From Acrasis kona (lineage: Eukaryota; Heterolobosea; Eutetramitea; Acrasida; Acrasidae), in the NCBI GenBank assembly GCA_026419775.2, contig JAOPGA020001376.1:1-64000 (forward strand): a stretch of DNA of 64,000 bases, in the 5' to 3' direction. Every line of letters begins with the position of its first letter. Position 1 is the first letter of the stretch. The notes under the pieces are model-generated. The model had not been told where the DNA came from, ran no database searches, and saw nothing but the letters and a program-made list of their open reading frames with translations. A program made the position numbers and the translations under genes. Positions 4,544-61,251 of this stretch are shown piece after piece.

Positions 4544-4606
4544 TATTAAGTTAAGTAGGAGGTAATATTTGTTTACAATGTATTGGGAAGAGAATTTTTT
4601 AAAAAA

Positions 4607-4765
4607 CCACTTAGCAAGTGGAAAAATAAGTAAAGGTAGACGTAGGTAGAGTATGGAGAAAAACCACTTATAAAGTGGAAAACATTAGAGTTGTGGAAAA
4701 CCACACCTGGTGGAAACCAATAGATTAGTAGATAGAGTCGGATATAAAAACCACTCATAAAGTGG
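4607..4765. repeat. Series of short hairpin motifs CCACT-N5-AGTGG
   Basis: Closely similar stem-loops lie at 4607-4621, 4664-4678 and 4751-4765, each flanked by AAAA on both sides. A variant pair GTGGAAAACCAC / CCACACCTGGTGG lies at 4693-4713. Spacing is 45-57 bp. There is no open reading frame of note. Confidence 0.75.
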
Positions 4766-4971
4766 AAAACTTCCTTATAGATAGTAAATAGTATTGTAGG
4801 TTATATAGGATTGGAAGAAGAATACCAATTGTTTAGATTGCAGATTGAATGATTGCTGTTTGCCTGGATATGTCAGTGAATATGTAAAAATGGGATTCTT
4901 ATCTTTTATTTTTTGGAATACTTAAGGAGATCTTTTTGATGGTGAATTGTGCAATAGATTTGTGAATTGAT

Positions 4972-6952: not shown

Positions 6953-7376
6953 ACAGTGTTCACTGGAAGACTTCAGTCTACCTCCATTAGAATATATCAT
7001 CATGGGTGACACGTTAGTGTACACTGGAAGACTCTACTAAATAGTCNACCTCCATTAGATCATTCATAGGTGACACTTACACAATATAGCCCCACTGGAA
7101 GACTTTAGAGTGCAGGGCCTGTCCCTGCTATTAAATTTGGTTCGGCTATCCATTTAATGTCAGTACCTATGTTTATTATTGTGTATGAATCTAATAATTA
7201 TTAATGGAGGTAGTCGTGGTATGGACTTCCAGTGATTGAATCACCCATTATTGAAAAGAAAGTAATCGTTGTTTGTGGAGGTAGACTATTTATTAATGTC
7301 TTCCAGTGATTGTTGTGTCACCCATGATTATATTCTAATGGAGGTAGTCGTGGTATAGACTTCCAGTGAACACTAA
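6953..7376. mobile_element. Fold-back element with three tandem modules in each inverted arm
   Basis: Each module runs CACTGGAAGAC, then CTACCTCCATTAG, then GGGTGACAC. In the left arm modules start at 6961, 7022 and 7093. In the right arm the reverse-complement ends (CCAGTG) lie at 7229, 7303 and 7363. The outermost ends match over about 15 bp (AGTGTTCACTGG against CCAGTGAACACT). The central spacer of about 100 bp has no gene and holds GCAGGGCCTGTCCCTGC at 7113. Long modular inverted arms are the hallmark of Foldback/Galileo-type elements. One ambiguous base is at 7047. Confidence 0.75.
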
Positions 7377-28817: not shown

Positions 28818-29023
28818 TCAAAACACATGTCCAGGTCCTTTTTAGCATCGCATGGAAATCATGCTGAAAGCACTGCTTTTTTTGTGTAAGGTTTTACAAG
28901 ATAAGTCGCCCGTTCAATCCATGATCAGTCAAACAAATGATAATAATTAAAGGTTTATGTTTATTTGAAAAACATCGTTGGTACTAAAACATGTTATTCA
29001 TAATGATGAAAAAAGTAGTTTGA

Positions 29024-30727
29024 CTAATCTTGCTCTTCATCATGCATTCTTTGCCTCTCCATCCACATCTCAAAATGTTGTGTTCCATACTCGTAAACTT
29101 CGTGTTCGCACGTTCCATTGTATGATCCATAGATTCCAACGAATCTAGTGTCTATGCGATACTTTCCATCTGGGTGATCTTTTCCTTCAGGTGTACAGAA
29201 TTGAAGTGGATGTTGTTCTAATATCTCGCCTCTCTTGACAATAATTTTATGTTGACGTGCATTTTGTAGAGCAGACTTTATACATGACTTGTTAATCACT
29301 TTACAATCTTTAAATACTTTAGCTACCCATCCCTTAGATACAATTAACCCTGACCCAAGAGGCAATAGACGGCCACTGTCTACTTTATTGGATGCTGTTC
29401 CAGTGAATATATGAACACTTTTAGATTTGTATTTATATAACATATTTTCAAGTCCCTGCTGATCAGAACAACTAGATGGTCCAATTATTACTGTCCAGTC
29501 ACTTTTTGTTTTTCTACCAATAGCACGCAGAATAGACTCATCACTATTTGCTTCATCTACTCTCTTTACATCAATACTAATGGATGGACTATCTGCGACA
29601 ACCCTTTCTTTTATTTTTACTTTTGCTTCATCTTCCTTCTTGAAAGATGATAAAGAGAAGTAATGTGGACAATGACCAATGTCAAAGTATTTNTTTTGTG
29701 GATAGAAGGACTTGATATCATCAATGTCTTCTTTTTTGTAGTACCGATGATATGATACCATGGACTCTAAATACGATCTAAATCCATGGGGCTGCATCAC
29801 ATCTACTACAGAATAAGCTTTTGAGCACCTGTCAATCAACATTCTATCAAACATTTGTGGAGCACTATAACAACCAGAAACTTGAATATTGAGTTTACTC
29901 GCAATGTCAAGAAAACAACGAGGAACATCAAGATCGTAGTAGTGATCTTCGGCTTGTTTTTGAATTGGTTCTTCACACAATGACTCAAAGTTTATTAATA
30001 ATTTAAGAGCGGGCTTACTAATTAACACGCCTGCGCCACCAAGAAATCTATCACTCTCTGGATAATTACACATACCAAGGAACACTGGTTTTTTATGTAA
30101 ACCTCTGGAGTTGTGATAGGCAATTGCTCTGTACATGTTTAAAGGAATTACAAAGGAGTCGTCATCCGCGACAAAGAACCACCGCACGTCTTCATCTTCT
30201 CTTAATACAGCTGTCTTGTACATGTTCTTCATTGCATAGTAGAATCGGTATTGTGCGGACCAATAATCGTTTTTGCTTCCCTTTACCTCGACAATGTTTG
30301 AATTTCCGAACCAATTCTTGTAGTTTGAGCGTAGCGAAATGTCTTTTGGTGTGGTTGTGACAATAAAGTTATTTTCTGGTTTGAAAAAAGTCATCCAAGC
30401 GGAGTAGGAATGTCTTGCCTTTTCTTCTAGCTTTAAAGATCCCGAAACCATTGATAAGTAAACTTGCTCCTCTCTAACACCTATTTGATTGTTTTGCTGT
30501 TCGGTGAACTCTGGGCAGTCTTTGTTTGGTATATTCTCAATTTTACGCTGGCTATCTGAATTTGTATCGTGATCGAGAACTTGCTCTTCTATCCGTCCAT
30601 TACCAACTCTTTCAATGTGTGGTCTGCTATTGTAGGTATTTAAGATGAAAAAATAAATGGTAAGCGTAGTCACAAATATTACGGCGATCGAAAGAATTAT
30701 AGGTCTAAAACGCTTCAGCTTTGACAT
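29024..30727 (-). CDS. GT31-like (fringe/C1GALT type) glycosyltransferase, copy 1
   Basis: 567 residues, intronless, type II membrane layout. Residues about 9-29 are a signal anchor (IILSIAVIFVTTLTIYFFIL), then a polar stem. The catalytic domain (about 90-330) has YWSAQYRFYYAM, FVADDDSF with the DxD metal site at 188-190, and FLGGAGVLIS as in fringe and core-1 galactosyltransferases. A further C-terminal domain of about 200 residues is unrecognised. It probably works in the Golgi with a nucleotide sugar; donor and acceptor cannot be read. One codon contains N (29693). A nearly identical copy lies at 33439-35391. Similarity stops at the start codon, and a retroelement tail begins 50 bp upstream. 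Confidence 0.75.
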   Translation of the reverse strand: MSKLKRFRPIILSIAVIFVTTLTIYFFILNTYNSRPHIERVGNGRIEEQVLDHDTNSDSQRKIENIPNKDCPEFTEQQNNQIGVREEQVYLSMVSGSLKLEEKARHSYSAWMTFFKPENNFIVTTTPKDISLRSNYKNWFGNSNIVEVKGSKNDYWSAQYRFYYAMKNMYKTAVLREDEDVRWFFVADDDSFVIPLNMYRAIAYHNSRGLHKKPVFLGMCNYPESDRFLGGAGVLISKPALKLLINFESLCEEPIQKQAEDHYYDLDVPRCFLDIASKLNIQVSGCYSAPQMFDRMLIDRCSKAYSVVDVMQPHGFRSYLESMVSYHRYYKKEDIDDIKSFYPQXKYFDIGHCPHYFSLSSFKKEDEAKVKIKERVVADSPSISIDVKRVDEANSDESILRAIGRKTKSDWTVIIGPSSCSDQQGLENMLYKYKSKSVHIFTGTASNKVDSGRLLPLGSGLIVSKGWVAKVFKDCKVINKSCIKSALQNARQHKIIVKRGEILEQHPLQFCTPEGKDHPDGKYRIDTRFVGIYGSYNGTCEHEVYEYGTQHFEMWMERQRMHDEEQD

Positions 30728-30780
30728 GTTTTATCATCCACGACCTTTTCATCTGTCTTGTTGCGGACAGTCAACCAGAA

Positions 30781-30960
30781 TGTAAAATAAAATAAAATAA
30801 AATATTTATTCCCCAATGTAGCCTACACATTATGTAGGGTCCGAGCTGTCAGAGGCTTTGACACTATATACGGTATTTATTTTTTCTTCGTGTGACTCTT
30901 GGCTGATCCATCGTTGAGATTGGTCTTCTTGGTTAGGTCAATTGCATATCGTTACAGCTT
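30781..30960 (-). repeat. 3' end of dispersed element with (AAAAT)n tail, copy 2
   Basis: AAAAT pentamers at 30783-30805 run into ATTTATTCCCCAATGT and the KASDSSDP-encoding segment, matching 717-880. The element lies just 5' of glycosyltransferase copy 1, so it may now supply part of that gene's promoter or leader. Upstream on the minus strand, decayed coding text continues to about 31150. Confidence 0.6.
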
Positions 30961-31326
30961 GGATGTGCTCGCTTTTGACCTCCATTCGGGTTTTCGACCT
31001 CCTGGTGCCTCACTCCCGTCCCCAGTTACCTCCTCATATCCTCAACAAACTTCGCCTGGCTCCATTTGCCCCGTCAAATTTGCCGATGGCCAGCGTTTGG
31101 ACATACGCACCATTTGTGGAATCAGTAACCTCATTATTACCTGATCACCTAATCCTCTAATCATAGAATGAATTATTCATCAATTTGAACTCAATAAATT
31201 CTTTTGTTTATGAAGCCTGCTGTGGTTTTTAAAAATATCTAGGCAAATCAATTGTGTGAACGGTTAAGCCTCTTCCCACAACAAGTGTTTTTTTGGAATG
31301 TTCCGTTAGTGCCGAATTGTAGCCTG

Positions 31327-31632
31327 TTATCCTCGGGGCAATTGTCTAAATATAAAGAAAGGAGCACCATCCAAAATTTTGTAATCATGAGAGATGCTTC
31401 TTATATTTCCTTCTAGTTCTACTATGTCGTCCGCAGCGGTTGGATTGTTTCTTGAAGTGCTGTTGTATTTGCTAATTAACTTGCGAACATTTGATCCAAG
31501 GTGAAGAACTCGTCTGAAACGCTTGAACATGTCCCAAACTTTTCCGTGTACTCTAGTAAGGTTACATTTTCTATCTGATCTTTCGTTGTCTTTGATGCTG
31601 TGTCCCCTGACCCACTTTATCCGAATCTTCAA
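31327..31632 (-). pseudogene. RNase H domain relic of a retroelement
   Basis: A 101-codon minus-strand frame opens with IKWVRGHSIKDNERSDR, which matches the final RNase H motif (W-V-x-G-H-S, then N-E-x-x-D). The rest is a basic C-terminal extension without recognised features. There is no reverse transcriptase upstream in frame. It is on the same strand as the (AAAAT)n tail 0.5 kb further on, so both may be parts of one 5'-truncated LINE carrying RNase H. Confidence 0.55.
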
Positions 31633-31639
31633 AGTCTTT

Positions 31640-33350
31640 TTTTGTACAAGACACAGGAAGAACCTAGCTTATGCAAAGTTCGCATTAATTGTGGTGCACA
31701 TGTTCCTGGGGATTCGAATTAGGGTTCCGCAGACAATCGTCTCTGCTGAGATGCACGGTGTTCTTTCATTTCTTGTATATTAAGGACTATTACAATCCCA
31801 GAACAAAAAGCCATCAAATTTTTGGAGCCCTATTTTTATCTTCTCAGTCGGTTACAGCAAACGAGGGAAGCATTCCACAAAACAACACAAGTTTTCGGAG
31901 AGAACGTGGATCTATTTGCCCAGTGCAACAACAAGGTACCCAAGTTTTACTCGGAACAATGCGGCGGTGGAAGCGTTCACACAAATATGGAATGCCGACA
32001 AGGTCTTCTGCTATGTATAAATCACATTCCGCGAAAAGCTTTATTAGAAATTATTTACCATGTATACAAGAATCTTCGGATATGGACATGTGCGATCATG
32101 GCAGTCGGAATGAGATGTACGGTACGTGGATCGGAATTAGCCAACATCTCTTTGTTGTATTGAGTTATGTGAACGCATTTGTTTCTTGTTCGAAAAAACA
32201 CATTCACACATATTACTGTGTCTCAAGTCCAGTCATCTCAAGAAGTGCTCTCTGTCGCTGTACAGAACTTACCGGTGAAGAACAGAGTTCATTGCCCAAA
32301 TAGCATTGGTAACAGAGATTTGGCTTGGCTGGAGGTAAAGATGAAAAATTTAAATTTAAATTTGATTTTTCCGGATGGTTGCGAGGCATTAGATGAAGTT
32401 TGCAAGAAACTCAGTATCCTACCGATTATTTGGGGAGTGTGACAAAGCCTCAGAAATTTGCTCCACAAAGTAGTTTACAAGACGACAATGGAGTTGACAA
32501 CAATGATGAAGATGAATTGTGTGGCGACAACCTTTTCGGCCCCACTAAAACCGTCCACTCCATGAACACGGAGATTGGTGACATTAAATCCATGATGCTC
32601 TCCATCTCAGCATCCGCACTACAACAACAACAGCATTAGCAACAACCAAATACTACACGTCTTGGACTTCTCGTCTGTTGAATACAATTTTTCCTCCTTC
32701 AACTCGCCCTAGTCAAGACGGAAGCCACTAATAAGGCTGCAAAATCTGTTCTTAAGAAGGCCGACATGAACTTTACCTTCAAAAGACTTCGCGAAGCGTG
32801 TTTTGACAGAGGAGCTCAAGAAGTATAAGTTGGACTCTAATCCTGATTTCAAGCAACAACAAAAACAACAACAGAACAACAAGAAGGATGACACTCCCAT
32901 AGGGAACAAGAAGAAGAATTCCTTTTAGGACGGAAGAGGTCGAGAGGGAGGTAACAATTCTTCCACATAGGACAATCAACGACTGCTCCATACCAGTTCT
33001 GATCTTGAAGTTAGAGCTTCGAGGTGGACGAGTGTCAAGGAATTAGAGAGCATGGGCAAAGTACCCGGTGGCGAGATCGATTCTCAACACAATTCGTTAT
33101 GAAATTCGTCTTTTCACAAACAATCTGATCGTGAAGAACAAGGGTCGGAACATGAACTTCACAGAGGATCAACCACCCAAGTTTTGAAACAAGGAACGCT
33201 TACATTGATAAAGCGTGACAAGTCAACTGATTAAAGTGAGGAACGAACTTCTGGATTATGGTAGTGTCGGTTTTAATAACACAGGATATTTAAAGGAGTT
33301 ACAAGAGCAATAATGGTGATAAAGAAATTATTGTGGGATGGGTGGGTAGG
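31640..33350 (+). pseudogene. Decayed coding debris, probably mobile-element derived
   Basis: Plus-strand frames are open in overlapping pieces (31689-32303, 31822-32163, 32179-32442, 32400-32639) without a common phase. From 32457 the text is coding-like: acidic (DNNDEDELCGDN), then Q-rich, then VLKKADMNFTFKRLREACFD broken by a frameshift at about 32810, then KKYKLDSNPDFKQQQ. This resembles a gag or ORF1 protein. No catalytic motif is found. It fills the space between the two glycosyltransferase copies. Confidence 0.35.
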
Positions 33351-33438
33351 GTTATGTTTATGTATGTTAAAATAAAGGCCTTTTCACTATTTATTTGTCG
33401 TAGAACATGTTATTCATGTATGAAGAAAAGTGGTTTGT

Positions 33439-35391
33439 CTAATCTTGTTTTTCATCTCTCATTCTTTGCCTCTCAATCCACATCTCAAAATGTTGTGTTC
33501 CATACTCGTAAACTTCGTGTTCACATGTTCCTTTGTATGCTCCATAGATTCCAACAAATCTAGTGTCTATGCGATACTTTCCATCTGGGTGATCTTTTCC
33601 TTCAGGTGTACAGAATTGAAGTGGATGTTGTTCTAATATCTCACCTCTCTTGACAATAATTTTATGTTGACGTGCATTTTGCAGAGCAGACTTTATACAT
33701 GACTCGTCATCAATTGCTTTACAATCTTTAAATACTTTAGCGACCCATCCCTTAGATACAATTAACCCTGACCCAAGAGGCAATAGACGGCTATTGTCTA
33801 CTTTATTGGATGCTGTTCCAGTGAATATATGAACACTTTTAGATTTGTATTTATATAACATATTTTCAAGTCCCTGCTGATCAGAACAACTAGATGGTCC
33901 AATTATTACTGTCCAGTCACTTTTTGTTTTTCTACCAATGGCACGCAGAATAGACTCATCACTATTTGCTTCATCTACTCTCTTTACATCAATACTAATG
34001 GATGGACTATCTGCGACAACCCTTTCTTTTATTTTCACTTTTGCTTCACCTTCCTTCTTGAAAGATGATAAAGAGAAGTAATGTGGACAATGACCAATGT
34101 CAAAGTATTTATTTTGTGGATAGAAGGACTTGATATCATCAATGTCTTCTTCTTTGTAGTACCGATGATATGATACCATGGACTCTAAATACGATCTAAA
34201 TCCATGGGGCTGCATCACGTCTATAACAGATTTAACTTTTGAACATCTATCAATCAACATTCTATCAAACATTTGTGGAGCACTATTACAAGCAGAAACT
34301 TGAATATTAAGTTTACTCGCAATGTCAAGAAAACAACGAGGAACATCAAGATCGTAGTAGTGATCTTCGGCTTGTTTTTGAATTGGTTCATCGCACGATG
34401 ACTCAAAGTCTACTAATAATTTAAGAGCTGGCTTGCTGATCAACACGCCTGCACCACCAAGAAATCTATCAGAATATGGATAATTACACATACCAAGGAA
34501 CACTGGTTCTTTATGTAAACCTCTGGAGTTGTGATAGGCGATTGCTCTGTACATGTTTAAAGGAATTACAAAGGAGTCGTCATCCGCGACATAGAACCAC
34601 CGCACATCTTCATCTTCTCTCAATACAGCTGTCTTGTACATGTCTCTCATCGCATAGTAGAATCGATATTGTGCGGACCAATAATCGCTTTCGCTACCCT
34701 CTACCTCAACAATGTTTGAATTTCCGAACCAATTCTTGTAGTTTGAGCGTAGCGAAATGTCTTTTGGTGTGGTTGTGACAATAAAGTTATTTTCTGGTTT
34801 GAAAAAAGTCATCCAAGCGGAGTAGGAATGTCTTGCCTTTTCTTCTAGCTTCAAAGATCCCGAAACCATTGATAAGTAAACTTGCTCCTCTCTAACACCT
34901 ATTTGATTGTTTTGCTGTTCGGTGAACTCTGGGCAGTCTTTGTTTGGTATATTCTCAATTTTACGCTGGCTATCTGAATTTGTATCGTGATCGAGAGCTT
35001 GCTCTTCTATCTGTCCATTACCAACTCTTTCAATATGTGATCTGCTATTGTAGGTATTGTTTGGTGGATTCTCAATTGTTTGAGGGCTGTTCGATGAATT
35101 CTGGGCCTTCTCTGTTTGGTTAATTACGGTAGGTACGGTATCGTGATCGAGAACTTGCTCCTCTATCCGTCTATTACCAATTCTTTCAATGTGTGGTCTG
35201 CCGTTGTAGGAGTTCAAAACAAAAAAATAAATGGTAAGCGTAGTCACAAATATTACGGCGATCGAAAGAACTACAGGTCTAAAGCGCTTCAGCTTTGGCA
35301 TTTTTTTTTCTACGTTTTTATCAATGTTAACCATAGTTATAACAGTGCAATTCTGCGGTGGAACTGACAACAAATTAGATATTTTCGACAT
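33439..35391 (-). CDS. GT31-like glycosyltransferase, copy 2 with lengthened stem
   Basis: 650 residues if started at 35391; the start matching copy 1 is Met31 at 35301 (MPKLKRFRPVVLSIAV), giving 620. It has the same layout as copy 1: signal anchor, stem, GT31-like catalytic domain with ADDDSF and GGAGVLIS, and the same C-terminal domain. The two copies are near-identical from start to about 50 bp past the stop. The stem holds two versions of a roughly 23-residue unit (HIERIGNRRIEEQVLDHD and HIERVGNGQIEEQALDHD) where copy 1 has one, so it grew by internal duplication. The divergent HAD gene begins 90-180 bp upstream. Confidence 0.75.
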   Translation of the reverse strand: MSKISNLLSVPPQNCTVITMVNIDKNVEKKMPKLKRFRPVVLSIAVIFVTTLTIYFFVLNSYNGRPHIERIGNRRIEEQVLDHDTVPTVINQTEKAQNSSNSPQTIENPPNNTYNSRSHIERVGNGQIEEQALDHDTNSDSQRKIENIPNKDCPEFTEQQNNQIGVREEQVYLSMVSGSLKLEEKARHSYSAWMTFFKPENNFIVTTTPKDISLRSNYKNWFGNSNIVEVEGSESDYWSAQYRFYYAMRDMYKTAVLREDEDVRWFYVADDDSFVIPLNMYRAIAYHNSRGLHKEPVFLGMCNYPYSDRFLGGAGVLISKPALKLLVDFESSCDEPIQKQAEDHYYDLDVPRCFLDIASKLNIQVSACNSAPQMFDRMLIDRCSKVKSVIDVMQPHGFRSYLESMVSYHRYYKEEDIDDIKSFYPQNKYFDIGHCPHYFSLSSFKKEGEAKVKIKERVVADSPSISIDVKRVDEANSDESILRAIGRKTKSDWTVIIGPSSCSDQQGLENMLYKYKSKSVHIFTGTASNKVDNSRLLPLGSGLIVSKGWVAKVFKDCKAIDDESCIKSALQNARQHKIIVKRGEILEQHPLQFCTPEGKDHPDGKYRIDTRFVGIYGAYKGTCEHEVYEYGTQHFEMWIERQRMRDEKQD

Positions 35392-54623: not shown

Positions 54624-54705
54624 GCCTCTATGGCCCAATGGATTATCATTATAAGGCGTCGGCCTACGGAGCCGGAGATCCTGGGTTCGATCCCCAGTGG
54701 AGGTA
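54624..54705 (+). tRNA. tRNA-Arg(ACG) with enlarged D-loop
   Basis: Acceptor stem 54624-54630 pairs with 54698-54704 (two G-U wobbles). The anticodon arm TCGGC-CTACGGA-GCCGG shows ACG at 54666-54668 and has a normal 7-base loop, so there is no canonical intron. The T arm CTGGG-TTCGATC-CCCAG is perfect, and a T7 run follows within six bases. The D-loop is 18-19 nt; the usual GGATAAGGC is split by eight extra bases (TATCATTA) that make a small TTAT/ATAA hairpin. This is either an expanded D-loop or an intron in an unusual place. Confidence 0.85.
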
Positions 54706-54941
54706 TTTTTTTACATGCCAACAACATCTGATTGTTGTAATTATTGATAACCTAAGAGAAGAACATCAAGAAAGGATGCGTCATACATAGTTCTGGGGAA
54801 CTTCGCATGAACTAGCCAGTATAAAAGGTAAACTTAATAATATTTGAACAAACGTTAAGAAACAATATTGATCGTGTACACCATTTACCTTACGCGTCTA
54901 TACGATTCTCGTACATAAAACTCAAACACACAACAAAGCAG

Positions 54942-56242
54942 ATGTATTTAATACGTCAATCAGGCCTTCCTGAGATTATAAATGAAAACATTGACCCATT
55001 GGAGTATATTGATGAGGATGTCATGGTAGAGGCCAAGGCTAAGCAAGTTGCAGAACTATTGCAAAATTCGAAGCATGCAGTTATATATACTGGTGCGGGA
55101 ATAAGCACAAGTGCAGGTATACCTGACTTTAGAGGTCCAAATGGTTTTGTCACATTTTTATTTTTTTTTCTGAATCATAAATAGGTGTATGGACTCAAAG
55201 AGAAACAGGAGCAAAAATCGATCATTTCAAACCATCACCTTATCTTCTCCCTACAATAGCCCATCAAGCAGTTAAGACCCTTGTTGAGCTTCAAATGGTA
55301 TGTCCGAAAAAATAACTAATTATTCATTCTAATGAGGTCAAACATGTTGTATCCACTAATTGCGATGGGCTTCATATCAAATCTGGTCTCAACCAAAATC
55401 AATTATCAGAAATTCATGGTAATTCTTATTTGGAGGTTTGCGCTGATTGCGGTAAAAATCATTGGAGAGATTATGCAGTTCGTAATAACTGGAGTAGCCA
55501 TAAACATGAAACTGGAAGAAAATGTGAATCGTATAGATGTGAAGGCAACCTTTTAGATACTATAGTTAATTTTGGTGAGGATGAACTCGAGGGGCCATGG
55601 AATCAGGCTGTATTAAATATGAATAAAGCAGATCTTGTAATTGTACTTGGTAGCAGTCTCCGCGTAAGACGCTCATGCGAACTACCCGTAATGTGTCTCG
55701 AAAACGAAGGGTCTAACCTTGTTATTGTTAATCTTCAAAAAACTCCCTCTTATGATAAAGCGAAATTGAATGTACATTGTAGGACTGATGATTTCATGGG
55801 TCTATTATTTAAATATCTTGAACTGGATATTCCAAGTTATGTCTTCGATGTTACTTATGAATTTGGTATAGAAAAGGTCGATGACAAAAGTAGGATTTTT
55901 GTTCGAGAGTGTGGCCAGGACAAACACATAGCTTCTGTTGTTGATGAAGTGCTTTTTAAAGTATCTTTGGGCGCCCTTGAACTGGATCATAAGATGCGTA
56001 GTAGATGGCATGAGACGGAATATCAATTCTTAATAGACGAGCCAGAATTGGTTACAAAAATAAATGTAGATTTAATGATGAATTTCAAAGAAAAGGAGGG
56101 TGTGTCCAATATTTGTTCTCTCGAGATCGATCCTGTACCGTCGCCTTACTTTTGTGTCAAGTTCCGAATCCAAAGAGATTCCGTCACTGGAGAAATGACC
56201 GTCGAGAGAGTTGAGGAGGGAGGTTTTTGTTCAATATGTTGA
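54942..56242 (+). CDS. Sirtuin (SIR2 family, SIRT6/7-like) with C-terminal extension and CaaX-like end
   Basis: Three exons (54942-55143, 55185-55297, 55337-56242) with introns of 41 and 39 nt encode 406 residues. NAD-binding motif [23 protein letters not shown] spans the first splice site. STNCDGLH replaces the usual TQNxDGLH, the catalytic His is in [11 protein letters not shown], Zn ligands are CADC and CESYRC, and GSSLRV follows. The order and GVWT suit the SIRT6/7 branch of NAD-dependent deacylases acting on chromatin. Residues about 275-406 form an extension not known from that branch. The protein ends FCSIC, which fits a CaaX prenylation signal. Its last 100 bp and 3' end are duplicated at 57647. 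Confidence 0.85.
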
Positions 56243-56327
56243 GGTTATAAACAATAATAATTTTATGATTTTTACATTTCAATTACTGTGGCATCTTCCA
56301 TACTGACCAACTCTGTGTCGTCCCTCC
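56141..56327. repeat. 187-bp junction duplication, left copy
   Basis: Covers the sirtuin C-terminus, its stop codon and 85 bp beyond. It matches 57647-57818 almost base for base. The left copy keeps the sirtuin frame and ends in what corresponds to the last codons of the TMEM63 gene. Confidence 0.95.
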
Positions 56328-56544
56328 ATTCCTTGCTTTATTTAACTTTAAAGTTAATCTTTGCGTTTGTAAATTAAATGTTGACTGTATGCTCAGCTTC
56401 AATTGCCTTCGGGCTTTCCGTAGGTGGGGCCTACTGTGAAGTTACTTTTGCGTGCTTTCCGTGGATGGATCCTACTTTTCGGTTGAACTTTTAAAGTTCA
56501 TGTATAAAAAATTCGATTTATTGTTGCATTATAAAGTTACTACG

Positions 56545-56730
56545 ACGTTGAGGTGAGCTAGCTCTAACGTGGAGACACATATTATTATTGCGACGTTTGG
56601 CTGTGTTGACCATGAACGTGGAGTATATATGCATCAAGTTTAAGGTTTATTCTGACGTTGAGGTGAGCTAACTCCAACGTAGAGACACACTTAAATTACT
56701 ACGACAACGTTTGACTGTATACCTAAACGT
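56545..56730. repeat. Two-fold A-B array of hyphenated palindromes ACGTT...AACGT
   Basis: Four units: A1 56545-56570, B1 56593-56619, A2 56655-56680 and B2 56707-56730. A units share ACGTTGAGGTGAGCTA and B units share ACGTTTG-CTGT. Each begins ACGTT, ends AACGT and is followed by GGAGA or AGAGA (GGAGT in B1). The A-to-A and B-to-B periods are 110 and 114 bp. B2 crosses the stop codon of the orphan gene. Iterated sites like these could bind a protein or fold in the transcript's 3' end. Confidence 0.85.
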
Positions 56731-57589
56731 GGAGATAAAAGTAGCCGTCCTCCTGAGGTCGAGTTGACTTCCTTTTACAAGGGTTAACAACACTAATATT
56801 CATTTTTTCGAAATTCATATCTGCTGTAATATCGGTCTCTTTCGCTTCTTTGAATTCGAGTTTTTTCCTATATTGATTCGAAAGAGCGTTCAAGATATCT
56901 GTCAACATGTCTTCTTTAGTTCTGCGTTCAATCCCTCCAACACCCATGCTAACATTGGAAAGGTTGTTGCAGCTAATTACTTTACGTAGTATGGACAAAA
57001 GGGTATTAGAATTTGCGTGAGTAGCTTTAATAGTTTTATTTTCGTGTTCTTTGATAATATGATCATTTATATTAGTGTCAATAATTGATGCGGTGTGGCA
57101 TTCCGGGCAGAAATAAACCGGTTGTGATGATTTGTTAGATTTGATGTCTCTTATTTCAAATTTTTCATCATTGTATTCAATACTGCCCATAGTTAATTGA
57201 GAAAATTGCTTGTAGAACAATTCGTGTGTGTTAAAAATTTTTTCTTTCTGTTTGTCGCAGACGATACGCTCCCAATTTTTTGACTTTAATGATGCTCTGG
57301 AAAGCCATATTAGCTTTTCTAGGTGCCCTTCGTCAACATTAGATAGGTATTTCTTGAATTTTGAATCAATAATAGCACAATCTACAACGCATACATATTG
57401 TACGATATCTTTAGTTAAAAAAAATCTTTCCAAGTATTCTAAAGTATCGGATGTGAGGTCGTTATTGAAAAAATTTAAAATGTATTTTGTGTTGTCTTTG
57501 AGCCCGGAAGCTGCTGTTAAAATTAAAGTGAAAGCGTCTTCGTCTTTAAGGGATTGGTTTCTAGCATCTAAAACAACAGGAACAGTCAT
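56723..57589 (-). CDS. Orphan protein with one C2H2-like zinc finger
   Basis: 288 residues, intronless, the only gene in the insert. The N-terminal two thirds are mixed alpha/beta (TKYILNFFNNDLTSDTLEYL, IVQYVCVVDCAIIDSKF, HLEKLIWLSRASL) and match no family I know. Residues about 159-181 carry YFCPECHTASIIDTNINDHIIKEH, a C-x2-C-x12-H-x4-H finger. A Leu-rich helix (SNTLLSILRKVISC) and a charged C-terminus follow. A nucleic-acid-binding role is inferred from the finger alone. The frame is intact, so it is probably expressed or a recent arrival. Confidence 0.65.
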   Translation of the reverse strand: MTVPVVLDARNQSLKDEDAFTLILTAASGLKDNTKYILNFFNNDLTSDTLEYLERFFLTKDIVQYVCVVDCAIIDSKFKKYLSNVDEGHLEKLIWLSRASLKSKNWERIVCDKQKEKIFNTHELFYKQFSQLTMGSIEYNDEKFEIRDIKSNKSSQPVYFCPECHTASIIDTNINDHIIKEHENKTIKATHANSNTLLSILRKVISCNNLSNVSMGVGGIERRTKEDMLTDILNALSNQYRKKLEFKEAKETDITADMNFEKMNISVVNPCKRKSTRPQEDGYFYLHV

Positions 57590-57646
57590 TGTTGGTTTTT
57601 CCAGTTGAGTACGTTACAAGTTAAATATTTAAATATTTGAGATCAA

Positions 57647-57818
57647 TCGCCCTACTTTTGTGTCAAGTTCCGAATCCAAAGAGATTCCGTCACTGGAGAA
57701 ATGACCGTCGAGAGTTTTTGTTCAATATGTTGAGGTTATAAACAATAATGATTTTATGATTTTTACATTTCAATTACTGTGGCATCTTCCATACTGCTCA
57801 ACTCTGTGTCGTCCCTCC
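57647..57818. repeat. 172-bp junction duplication, right copy
   Basis: Equals the left copy apart from a 15-bp deletion in the former sirtuin coding part (after GTCGAGAG) and scattered single changes. It contains the genuine 3' end of the TMEM63-like gene, whose stop is at 57763-57765, so here the gene is intact and the sirtuin end is a remnant. Confidence 0.95.
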
Positions 57819-60454
57819 TAGTCATCAACTCTGCAGCTTCATATTCAATTTGACTCCTGATTCTAGGATCAGTTTCCATGGAGTATGGAGATAGGTAACT
57901 CTCTTTGAACTTATCCAGATATTGAACATTAATAGAGTCAGCATCATCTGACTTTTGTGAGATTAAAGGAAAAGTAGGTGACTTGCTGTCATCATACTTT
58001 TTCTCGACTACATCTAATCCGCTCCTGTACCTAACCGTCCATATAATTGAATAAATAAAAGTTATTATCAACAACAAGGATAAAACTGATGTATGCATGT
58101 ATGTATATGGACCTGATCGAGCAAAATAAATCACCATAAATGTTTGGAATATTAGTAAGCTGACCATCACAAGCACTGTAACAAGTTTTGTCTTTTCTCT
58201 GTAAGCCCACAAGTCCTTTATGACCTTGTGTGATGCTTTGGAGTTTTTATCATATAATATTGTAATGTTGTGTCTATCAATACAATACTTTGAGATGGAG
58301 TAAACGAGACCAACAAAAAGAATTAAGGGAGAGAAAACAGAATAACTAATCGCAATTGCGAAAAAAGAAATCAAGAATGAATATTCAAATCCGCTGTCAA
58401 ATTCAGCGACATTTGTTGCCTCTTCCTTTTCTTCCTCTGTAATAGCATCTAAAAATTAAAATCTAATTTTTAAAATCAAAAAACTTACAATGTGACCTGT
58501 ACAAGTATCTAACAAACGATGTGATACGGAGAACGTCAGCAGTGTTGCCGAGCAGAACATATTGAATGGAATAAATCAAGAAGAAGGCACCAGCAGCAGG
58601 TAAGAATATTCTATACAAGACTTCCTCAAAACTATTCTTCAAGGTTGACTCGATGATGGAATTTATAGACAATTGTAACAAGGAAGGAAGAATTAAAGTG
58701 GTCAGACACAAGTACACATACAACCGCATCAAATTAATTCTATGAATTTGACTCTTGCTCTTATATCTCTCGATACCACTCAAGTAATATAGAATCAGAG
58801 GAAGCACGTTTGACAAGATCACCAACAACAATGTAGGAATGTACTGAATAAGAAGGTCACCAACCACATTTTCTCTAAATTTCTGGAAACGAGTGTACAA
58901 CCAACCCTTAAAAGTTTAAGATTTTAGCAAAATAAATTCTACTTACATTACTCATCCAAGCAGAAAATAAATTTAAAATGGATAGTGGACTTGTGAAAAA
59001 TATTAACAAAACTGCAAGAATAGCGTGGACAAAGAATACACGTAAGTTTCGACTCCTGGATCTAATGTTATAATTTTCCCATATAATGTCATCTGGCTCC
59101 CTTGCACGGAATACTCTAAATTTTAGTCCATTGGAATTCAAATATTTTCTTCCATTGTTTCCTGATTTTACGCAACTAACAACAGAGGATATGTTCTAAT
59201 AGGTTACATCAGACACGGTCAACACAAAAATATTACCTTAAAGATTACAAAAGCACTTCCCGTACTAGTCAATGGTACTTCGTTCAGATCCTGTATCTGT
59301 TCCCGTACCGTTTGTTTGCGATCCTCAAGATGTGATAATTGGTCAACCCGAGATGAACAACAACCAACACCTTTAAAACAAGAACAAGTTCTGGGTCTTT
59401 TACCAGTTTTTTCGATCACAGCTTCAACATGTCTAATTTTATTTTCAATGTCATTCAACTTTCTATGCAGTACAATCTTTTGGCTCGTGTCTAACACTAT
59501 TCTCGCACTATAGATCTGACTTGGGTATAACTGTTCGAAGGCTTCTCTTAACTTCTCATTATCAATTAAATCTTTTGGTAGTCCGGATACTTCTGCTGTG
59601 AAATTACTGACCCGACCATATATGGTCTCATCTTTGTTGTATCGGAAGGATCCAGACCCTCTTTGAACAAAAGTAGCAGAGTGGAACCTGTTCAAGAAGA
59701 ACAAAAAAACAGCACTATTAATTTTAAAAAAAATGTGTCGAGATGTTGAGCTCACCTAAAAAGAACAGTCAAAGTGACATGTGCCCATAATTTATGGTAA
59801 CTGTCTTGAACCGAAACGACAGTGGCTCTCACAAGGAAATAATCTGCTGCTTCAGTATAGTTGCGAGACCCTAATTTGATTAATGTTAAAAAAAAGATTA
59901 TGTATTACCATAATTTAGGTTGCTAGGTAGGGTAGGGCTTCCAGTTAAATGTATTGGCAGTAATATTGTTAAAGCCAGAAAAGTACAAATGGATAGGGCT
60001 AGTAACATCTAATTGATGAGTTTTCGGTTTCCAATAATTAAAATACTTGTTTTGAGAACCACATGTAAACTCCTGCCTCTTGGCCGTATGTTGCCCCAAA
60101 CTTTTCATACTCAGAAACACTAAATAGCCATTTATATATCCTACTTCCGAACCTCGTAAGAGGGTTGCTGGGTGGCGACAATTCTTCAAGTTGAATTGAA
60201 TCTAATTCAGCATCACTTTCACTGATCGACCGTTTGTTTCTCTGGTTCTGATGGTGTTAAAACTATCTATTATATATACAAACCTTATATAAAGCCGTTC
60301 TTCGGTAGAACACAAAAAATATAAATAAAGCAATAAAGAATATAATACTATCCAAGGTCACCACAAACGTCAATCCAAAAGTGCTGAACGGTAGAGCTGG
60401 TATCTTGAAGCCGGTGCTGTTGTTCGATGTACCATTGGTGGCAACACTTGACAT
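57763..60454 (-). CDS. TMEM63/CSC1-family mechanosensitive cation channel
   Basis: Eight exons on the minus strand: 60454-60284, 60247-60047, 60008-59909, 59870-59756, 59714-59237, 59195-58947, 58907-58499 and 58448-57763. Introns are 36, 38, 38, 41, 41, 39 and 50 nt, all in phase, giving 802 residues. The layout is N-terminal membrane helices, a cytosolic region (YGRVSNFTAEVSGLPKDL, then the Cys-rich CSCFKGVGCCSS loop and SAFVIFK) and REPDDIIWENYNI before the core helices. EFDSGFEYSFLISFFAIAISYSVFSPLI matches the conserved FDFGYEYA region of OSCA/TMEM63. These dimeric channels open on membrane tension and conduct Ca2+ and other cations, as expected in a cell facing osmotic stress. The start at 60454 is the first ATG before the first membrane helix. 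Confidence 0.9.
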
Positions 60455-60583
60455 GTTCCAAAGCAAGTGGTTGATTCAACTTTTCGCGGATTGATTGACA
60501 CACATCAAAAAACAATTGTCAAGATATCACACCAAATTAATAGAAGAACAAAAAACTGGTTCGAATAATAACATTTATATAAC

Positions 60584-61251
60584 TCAATCCTCTTGCATTA
60601 TATCATCAATATTAATTTCTTCCACAATTTCATTTTTAAAGATTGGTTTACTTTCAAAGGGATTTGAGGCCATCTCTACGTCCGAAGGTGTAATATTATG
60701 TGGTCCTCTTGTCTTCTCGTAAGCCTCTTTTATAATTAAATTTGGGTCTTTATAAAGTACAATTTCCCTGTTAATTAGTATGACCATATACACAAAGCAA
60801 CTTACTGTGAAGGTTTTTTTACTTTCAAGAAATGAGAAAGTATGTTATGGGGGAGAATGCTTGTAACATGTTTGAGGTTTTCTTCTTTTATTATTTTTGG
60901 TATAATCTCTTCGGTTTTCTTCTCTTCGACTGGGGGTGTATATAACATTAAAGCTTTTTGTTGTTTCCTGTGAGACCTCGAAAGACTCGTTGGTGAAACC
61001 GAAGATGTTGGTGGTGATACACTGTGGCTTATTGTTTTGGGAGCTTTGTTTATAATAATATGGGGTGGTAGAGGGGGTGATTTTTCATAAGTAATTTGGG
61101 TGGAGCTTCCGTTGTTCAATTTTAATTCTGATATACGAAGGGATAACTCCTCCGAAAGATAACGTTTATGCATTCTGAAGCAATCGATATCATCCTCACT
61201 TTCAAGTCCGAACTCGGTACTATGTAACCTCTTCCGATGAAGCAATGACAT
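60584..61251 (-). CDS. Unknown protein, Ser/Pro-rich, divergent from FAD synthase
   Basis: Exons 61251-60806 and 60767-60584 with a 38-nt intron (GTAAGT...AACAG) give 209 residues. The start at 61251 (MSLLHRKRLHSTEF) is preferred over the open frame upstream, which overlaps the divergent gene. The basic N-terminus is followed by a charged helix (HKRYLSEELSLRISELKL), a Ser/Thr/Pro-rich middle (SPPTSSVSPTSLSRS), a Lys/Glu stretch and an acidic end (EIVEEINIDDIMQED). The LSEEL helix recalls small nuclear regulators, but no family can be named. Confidence 0.6.

Follow-up and report, generated by a model that had tools for sequence, protein, structure and literature searches.

Results

The junction of two convergent genes is duplicated around a 1319-bp block

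We analysed a 64,000-nucleotide stretch of the Acrasis kona contig JAOPGA020001376.1 (positions 1 to 64,000 of the forward strand, hereafter the window). The RPB1 sequence encoded in it is closest to three JGI records (85, 71 and 69% identity) and, among named organisms, to Willaertia magna (58%) and Naegleria gruberi (57%), which points to a host that is probably a heterolobosean or a near relative of one. Two convergent genes frame the locus described here. On the plus strand, the 3′ exon of a sirtuin-like gene occupies 55316–56242 (Pfam SIR2, E 9.2e-7), preceded by one or more upstream exons from about 54942. The sirtuin-like protein has 627 relatives at E ≤ 0.001, the best at E 3e-85, and was aligned over its length with five relatives, including the C-terminal region, where conservation is weak. 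On the minus strand, the last exon of a TMEM63/CSC1-like gene lies at 57763–58455 (Pfam RSN1_7TM, E 3.3e-7). The sirtuin-like frame stops at 56242 and the TMEM63-like frame at 57763 on the minus strand, and both genes are intact. A tRNA-like sequence at 54624–54704, which by eye resembles an Arg tRNA (anticodon ACG) whose D arm has a few additional bases, was called neither by ARAGORN (bacterial code) nor by Rfam at gathering scores.

The 187 bp at 56141–56327 recur at 57647–57818 as a copy of 172 bp. The alignment has a single gap of 15 bp and 168 matches in 172 positions, and the two copies were also picked up as the repeat families D1 and D2. The left copy consists of the sirtuin 3′ end, a 29-bp spacer and the TMEM63 3′ end, and the right copy has an in-frame loss of 15 bp after 57713. 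Between them, exactly at their borders, sits a block of 1319 bp (56328–57646). A preliminary description of this DNA, made from its letters, had proposed such a block between junction copies of 187 and 172 bp with a 15-bp loss, as well as sirtuin and TMEM63 ends converging about 30 bp apart, and both proposals were borne out. It had also held that the left copy preserves one gene and the right copy the other. This proved correct: the sirtuin-like gene uses the tail in the left copy and the TMEM63-like gene the tail in the right copy. In the unused sirtuin tail of the right copy the 15-bp loss leaves the same stop to be reached, and the unused TMEM63 tail of the left copy is open as far as its stop. 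Since both convergent gene ends are present within each junction copy, the junction must at one time have been uninterrupted, a conclusion that requires no outgroup.

We did not accept that the duplication might reach farther to the left, to about 56107, since scores as good were obtained with 39 of 600 randomly chosen anchored pairs. Self-comparison of the window for direct repeats (at least 40 bp, at least 80% identity, less than 8 kb apart) returned only one further set of pairs, which belongs to a tandem gene pair at 28985–35306; these two genes, glycosyltransferase-like by eye, are 95% identical over 1.66 kb and lie 2.76 kb apart. The duplicated junction around an inserted block is real and well delimited.

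Searches of the organism's own genome covered an assembly of 37.35 Mb in 1021 contigs. The queries 54930–56327, 56780–57650 and 57819–60800 did not reveal the full locus at any second place in this assembly. A physical empty site was thus not found there, which answers the suggestion in the preliminary description to look for one. A 3′ piece of the TMEM63-like gene (57799–58026, about 220 bp) recurs at C378:115–341 and C816:64766–64985 with 91–92% identity. The ends of contigs C378 and C816 overlap by 1401 bp at 99.8%, and the end of the recurring piece falls within the duplicated junction, 12–19 bp short of its right end.

Two explanations of the duplication can be weighed at this point. The first is an assembly chimera, in which two haplotypes were merged and the junction copies are alleles. 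Both copies encode intact tails of both genes with the 15-bp gap in frame, as alleles would, and the assembly of 1021 contigs includes some near-duplicate contig pairs. However, the divergence between the copies is 2.3% (4 of 172 positions), compared with 0.21–0.89% between the members of three near-duplicate contig pairs (five segments aligned), a weak comparison in that four differences are few and the pairs may be alleles or unmerged contig ends. Moreover, no N lies nearby (the three in the window are at 7047, 9089 and 29693), and a false join would still require reads running from the junction into the repeat element with which the block begins. The higher divergence suggests that the duplication is probably older than the near-duplicate contig pairs and does not reflect a simple haplotype merge, and we consider a chimera decidedly unlikely. 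The second explanation is a DNA circle carrying junction and block, which integrated through one homologous crossover and left direct repeats of the shared stretch behind. A circle would account for a long direct duplication without special ends, and the presence of the TMEM63 3′ fragment (58026–57799) on C378/C816 as well would fit it. Yet it needs a prior event that placed 187 bp of the junction on the circle, and junction and block were found together nowhere else in the assembly, which makes this history quite unlikely.

The block is a composite of a truncated repeat and single-copy DNA

The preliminary description had treated the block as unknown DNA. It is a composite of a truncated dispersed repeat and about 860 bp of single-copy DNA, and its left third is a transposon-like fragment. 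Searching the assembly with 56100–57900 gave 25 matches including the query itself, most of them within 56322–56795 and two of them the TMEM63 pieces, and 56780–57650 matched only itself. The repeat part (56328–56787 on the plus strand, the end being approximate) is a truncated copy of a nearly palindromic element, whose centre of symmetry lies about 25 bp from the start of the copy. The element's terminal sequence occupies 56761–56783 and is followed by TTAA at 56784–56787; the single-copy part spans 56788–57646. The window therefore holds one half of the element, with an inner boundary that is internal and an outer end at 56783. The fullest copies in the assembly, on C760 and C115 (L012 and L015, homologous copies of one site), measure about 1.1–1.2 kb, are nearly palindromic and extend past the point where the copy in the window starts. 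They begin with TTAACCTTGTAAAAGGAAGTCAACTC and finish with the reverse GAGTTGACTTCCTTTTACAAGGTTAA. Genome-wide, the terminal sequence occurs nine times at up to three mismatches, against zero for a reversed control.

Iterated palindromes in the block had been reported in the preliminary description. The iterated units do exist; they are internal repeats of the dispersed element and are found in its other copies too. The short perfect palindromes that it had listed as a feature do not exceed chance. With a minimum length of 10 bp, the repeat part contains two where 0.5 are expected, a count reached in 96 of 1000 simulations, and the gene part contains three where 1.3 are expected, reached in 149 of 1000. 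A palindrome enrichment was accordingly rejected.

We then considered which kind of transposon the repeat could represent. TTAA adjoins both termini in L012 and L015, which stand for one site, with no empty site seen. PiggyBac-type transposons and their non-autonomous relatives follow a TTAA rule, and the piggyBac transposase family yielded 66 match rows genome-wide, 18 of them in frames of at least 400 codons, of which 14 have no stop inside the match. At six transposase loci compared out of these 66 rows, some of them cut by contig ends, the best agreement with the repeat termini left 7–9 mismatches of 22, and a script detected no TTAA-flanked inverted pair at any of the six. The element thus resembles piggyBac-type transposons in the TTAA abutting the termini of its fullest copies and in the presence of the transposase family in the genome; it differs in that the block holds half an element only and in that none of the six transposase loci shares its termini. 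Because matching termini were absent at all six loci, we assign the repeat to the TTAA kind only provisionally. At L021 (about 4581–4814) and L022 (about 4672–4903), the terminal sequence of the repeat is joined to what appears by eye to be a LINE-like 3′ end.

Nine partial copies have an inner end that could be located. Five of these ends lie near the centre of the palindrome, at about 6, 25, 58, 65 and 121 bp, the first placed partly by eye (11 bp by alignment), and four lie farther out, at about 231, 320, 392 and 438 bp. In our judgement this bias toward the centre is unconvincing, and breakage at the centre stays speculation.

The single-copy part carries an orphan open reading frame

A frame of 288 codons is open on the minus strand at 56723–57589, with its start codon only 57 bp from the right junction copy. 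About 20 codons at its 3′ end belong to the repeat element, so that the C-terminus consists of repeat sequence, which the preliminary description had missed. This overlap suggests that the insertion of the element probably took place at the 3′ terminus of the gene or close by. The open stretch in 56785–57646 amounts to 276 codons, compared with a maximum of 239 codons in 5000 dinucleotide-preserving simulations, and the frame is unlikely to be a chance product. Its codon score is 0.109, or 0.12 when the repeat part is excluded, within the range of 0.075–0.185 of 12 long frames of the window, from which the codon model itself was built. Two exons outside the model score 0.089 (sirtuin) and 0.134 (TMEM63), and one frame on the strand opposite the orphan also reaches 0.066.

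No protein relatives of the frame were found at E ≤ 1 among the 464 candidates of the protein search, and its own genome gave nothing beyond one match at E 0.27. NCBIfam returned no match. A viral origin was not supported either, with no relative confirmed in IMG/VR, where the search reaches close relatives only, and no PHROG found. A single intact orphan zinc-finger gene had been described here. The orphan open frame stands, and the finger, a candidate at about residues 152–191, is a weak call: the match to zf-CHY (E 0.08) scores 13.8 bits, below the cut-off of 31.3, and a ZFAT finger matches the finger-like stretch at E 0.0067 by sequence comparison. The predicted structure, with a mean pLDDT of 34.8, was uninformative.

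The block ends are not those of a transposon

The left end of the block falls inside the element and the right end in unique DNA. At the left joint the junction reads ...CCCTCC and the element ...CTACATTCC, with one shared base; the right end reads ...AAATATTTGAGATCAA, followed by the junction copy, with no poly(A). Inverted repeats at both block ends are absent. There is one terminal sequence only, at 56761–56783 and thus inside the block, and a pair of 21-nt sequences near the block ends is only 76% complementary. The TTAA of the element likewise lies within the block, and the target duplication is 187 bp and not short and fixed. We rejected insertion of the whole block as a transposon, as the block lacks paired ends and neither of its two ends belongs to a transposon.

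Further copies of the insert with flanking duplications had been proposed as a check. Pieces of the element occur in 14 other contigs, of which we scanned 12 loci (all but C16 and C148) for flanking direct repeats of at least 40 bp at 80% identity or more. None of the 12 is flanked in this way, and about nine of them are independent given the homologous pairs L012/L015, L020/L023 and L021/L022. In the entire scan of 190,761 bases from 16 sources, the window included, the present locus was the only block with a flanking duplication. A candidate second case in L016 (8490–8579 and 9354–9441; 90 bp, 90%, with a 774-bp gap) was rejected, as its parts are by eye pieces of a LINE-like retroelement. 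The absence of long flanking duplications at the 12 other loci argues against a habit of making them that is borne by the element. The alternative of a new insertion mechanism, which the preliminary description had raised, found no support, with a block that lacks matching ends and starts inside an element, and with 12 scanned loci free of long duplications.

Retrotransposition of a 5′-truncated element, with 3′ transduction of the adjoining gene and an unusually long target duplication, would be in line with several element copies that share one end and differ at the other, with a truncated start that shows minimal microhomology, and with the terminal sequence following an apparent LINE 3′ end in C242 and C948. 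The fullest copies, however, have inverted repeats and TTAA at both ends, unlike a retroelement. In addition, poly(A) is lacking at the right end of the block and a copy of the source gene is lacking in the assembly. We therefore regard this route as very improbable.

Discussion

The first option of the preliminary description, repair of a staggered break with capture of a gene, is the best-supported reading of the locus, and we consider it probable that the junction broke with long staggered ends that were filled in and joined through a captured fragment. We infer that the ends were staggered and filled in, that one step sufficed and that the element already stood beside the captured gene. 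The convergent junction would have broken so that its two ends were offset by about 187 nt, either through a nick in each strand or with long overhangs. Fill-in of both overhangs would then have produced a full junction copy at each end, and end joining would have linked these ends via captured chromosomal DNA consisting of half the palindromic transposon-like element and the adjoining gene. All of this would have happened in one event, with the element already beside the captured gene beforehand; speculatively, the donor fragment may have come from breakage at the centre of the palindrome. Such a single-step history appears likelier than a tandem duplication followed by an insertion exactly at its border, since the copies directly adjoin the block on both sides, and a separate later insertion would have needed luck to strike that very point.

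The host has two Ku loci above the cut-off, presumably Ku70 and Ku80, in a search that among the end-joining genes covered Ku. As for a donor, dispersed copies of the repeat part exist in the genome, and none was found for the gene part in the assembly. Microhomology at the left joint amounts to 1 bp.

These observations also bear on replicative template switching, termed MMBIR or FoSTeS. Here replication would have jumped from the junction to the donor and returned 187 bp behind, copying the block on the way. The same product is expected, and the one base shared at the left joint agrees with such a jump. Template switching predicts, however, that the donor is kept in place, and no donor of the gene part exists in the assembly; its second joint, on the right, can be read only with that donor. 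This alternative to break repair is unlikely.

Break repair with direct duplications has parallels elsewhere. In 2014 Vaughn and Bennetzen reportedly described tandem duplications that arise in patch-mediated repair of double-strand breaks. The likeness lies in a direct target duplication, from less than 100 bp to kilobases, that is not made by a transposon and is ascribed to repair of adjacent nicks. The differences are that here a captured block of 1.3 kb parts the copies and that the host is a heterolobosean-like protist and not rice. In an extension of that work on rice, tandem duplications drop from 70% of events to 5% by 200 bp, with a maximum of 4.9 kb (PMC7971508). Fill-in of protruding ends and end joining yield direct duplications of this sort (PMC8355091; PMC5730883).

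Capture of mitochondrial DNA at breaks resembles the present case in that a fragment is captured passively at a staggered break with a target duplication on both sides. It differs in its insert, which is mitochondrial, and in the length of the duplications, 1–11 nt in 17 of 71 numt events (PMC2567098). Other captured inserts have duplications of 4–21 nt (PMC2671141) or 8 nt (PMC5244254). Beside the captured-insert cases compared here (1–11, 4–21 and 8 nt), 187 nt is long, which counts against the repair reading, as do the absence from the assembly of a donor for the gene part, the failure to find a physical empty site and the single example in the 190,761 bases scanned. In grasses, gene-bearing fragments serve as filler DNA at breaks next to transposons and land at non-collinear positions (PMC3445842). 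The gene-bearing filler at a break and the non-collinear site are shared with our case, whereas the target break in grasses is tied to a transposon insertion, and here a piece of the element travels with the filler. No like case in a heterolobosean came up in the literature searched by title and the start of the abstract, which says little, as the searches did not name that group.

Most likely, the locus arose by break repair of an ordinary kind that captured a gene, and it is instructive as such. We also considered that palindromic half-copies, broken at their symmetry centre, launch flanking genes through a very wide stagger and without a second transposon end. This is extremely improbable; if it were true, a family of palindromic elements would move host genes with no need of a second transposon end. 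Under the repair reading, the locus is a natural record of the apparent patching of a break with a gene-bearing fragment, in a group of protists far from the plants and animals in which such repair has been studied. Further cases in this genome, if found, would offer a gauge of how much genes in compact protist genomes move by repair as compared with transposition.
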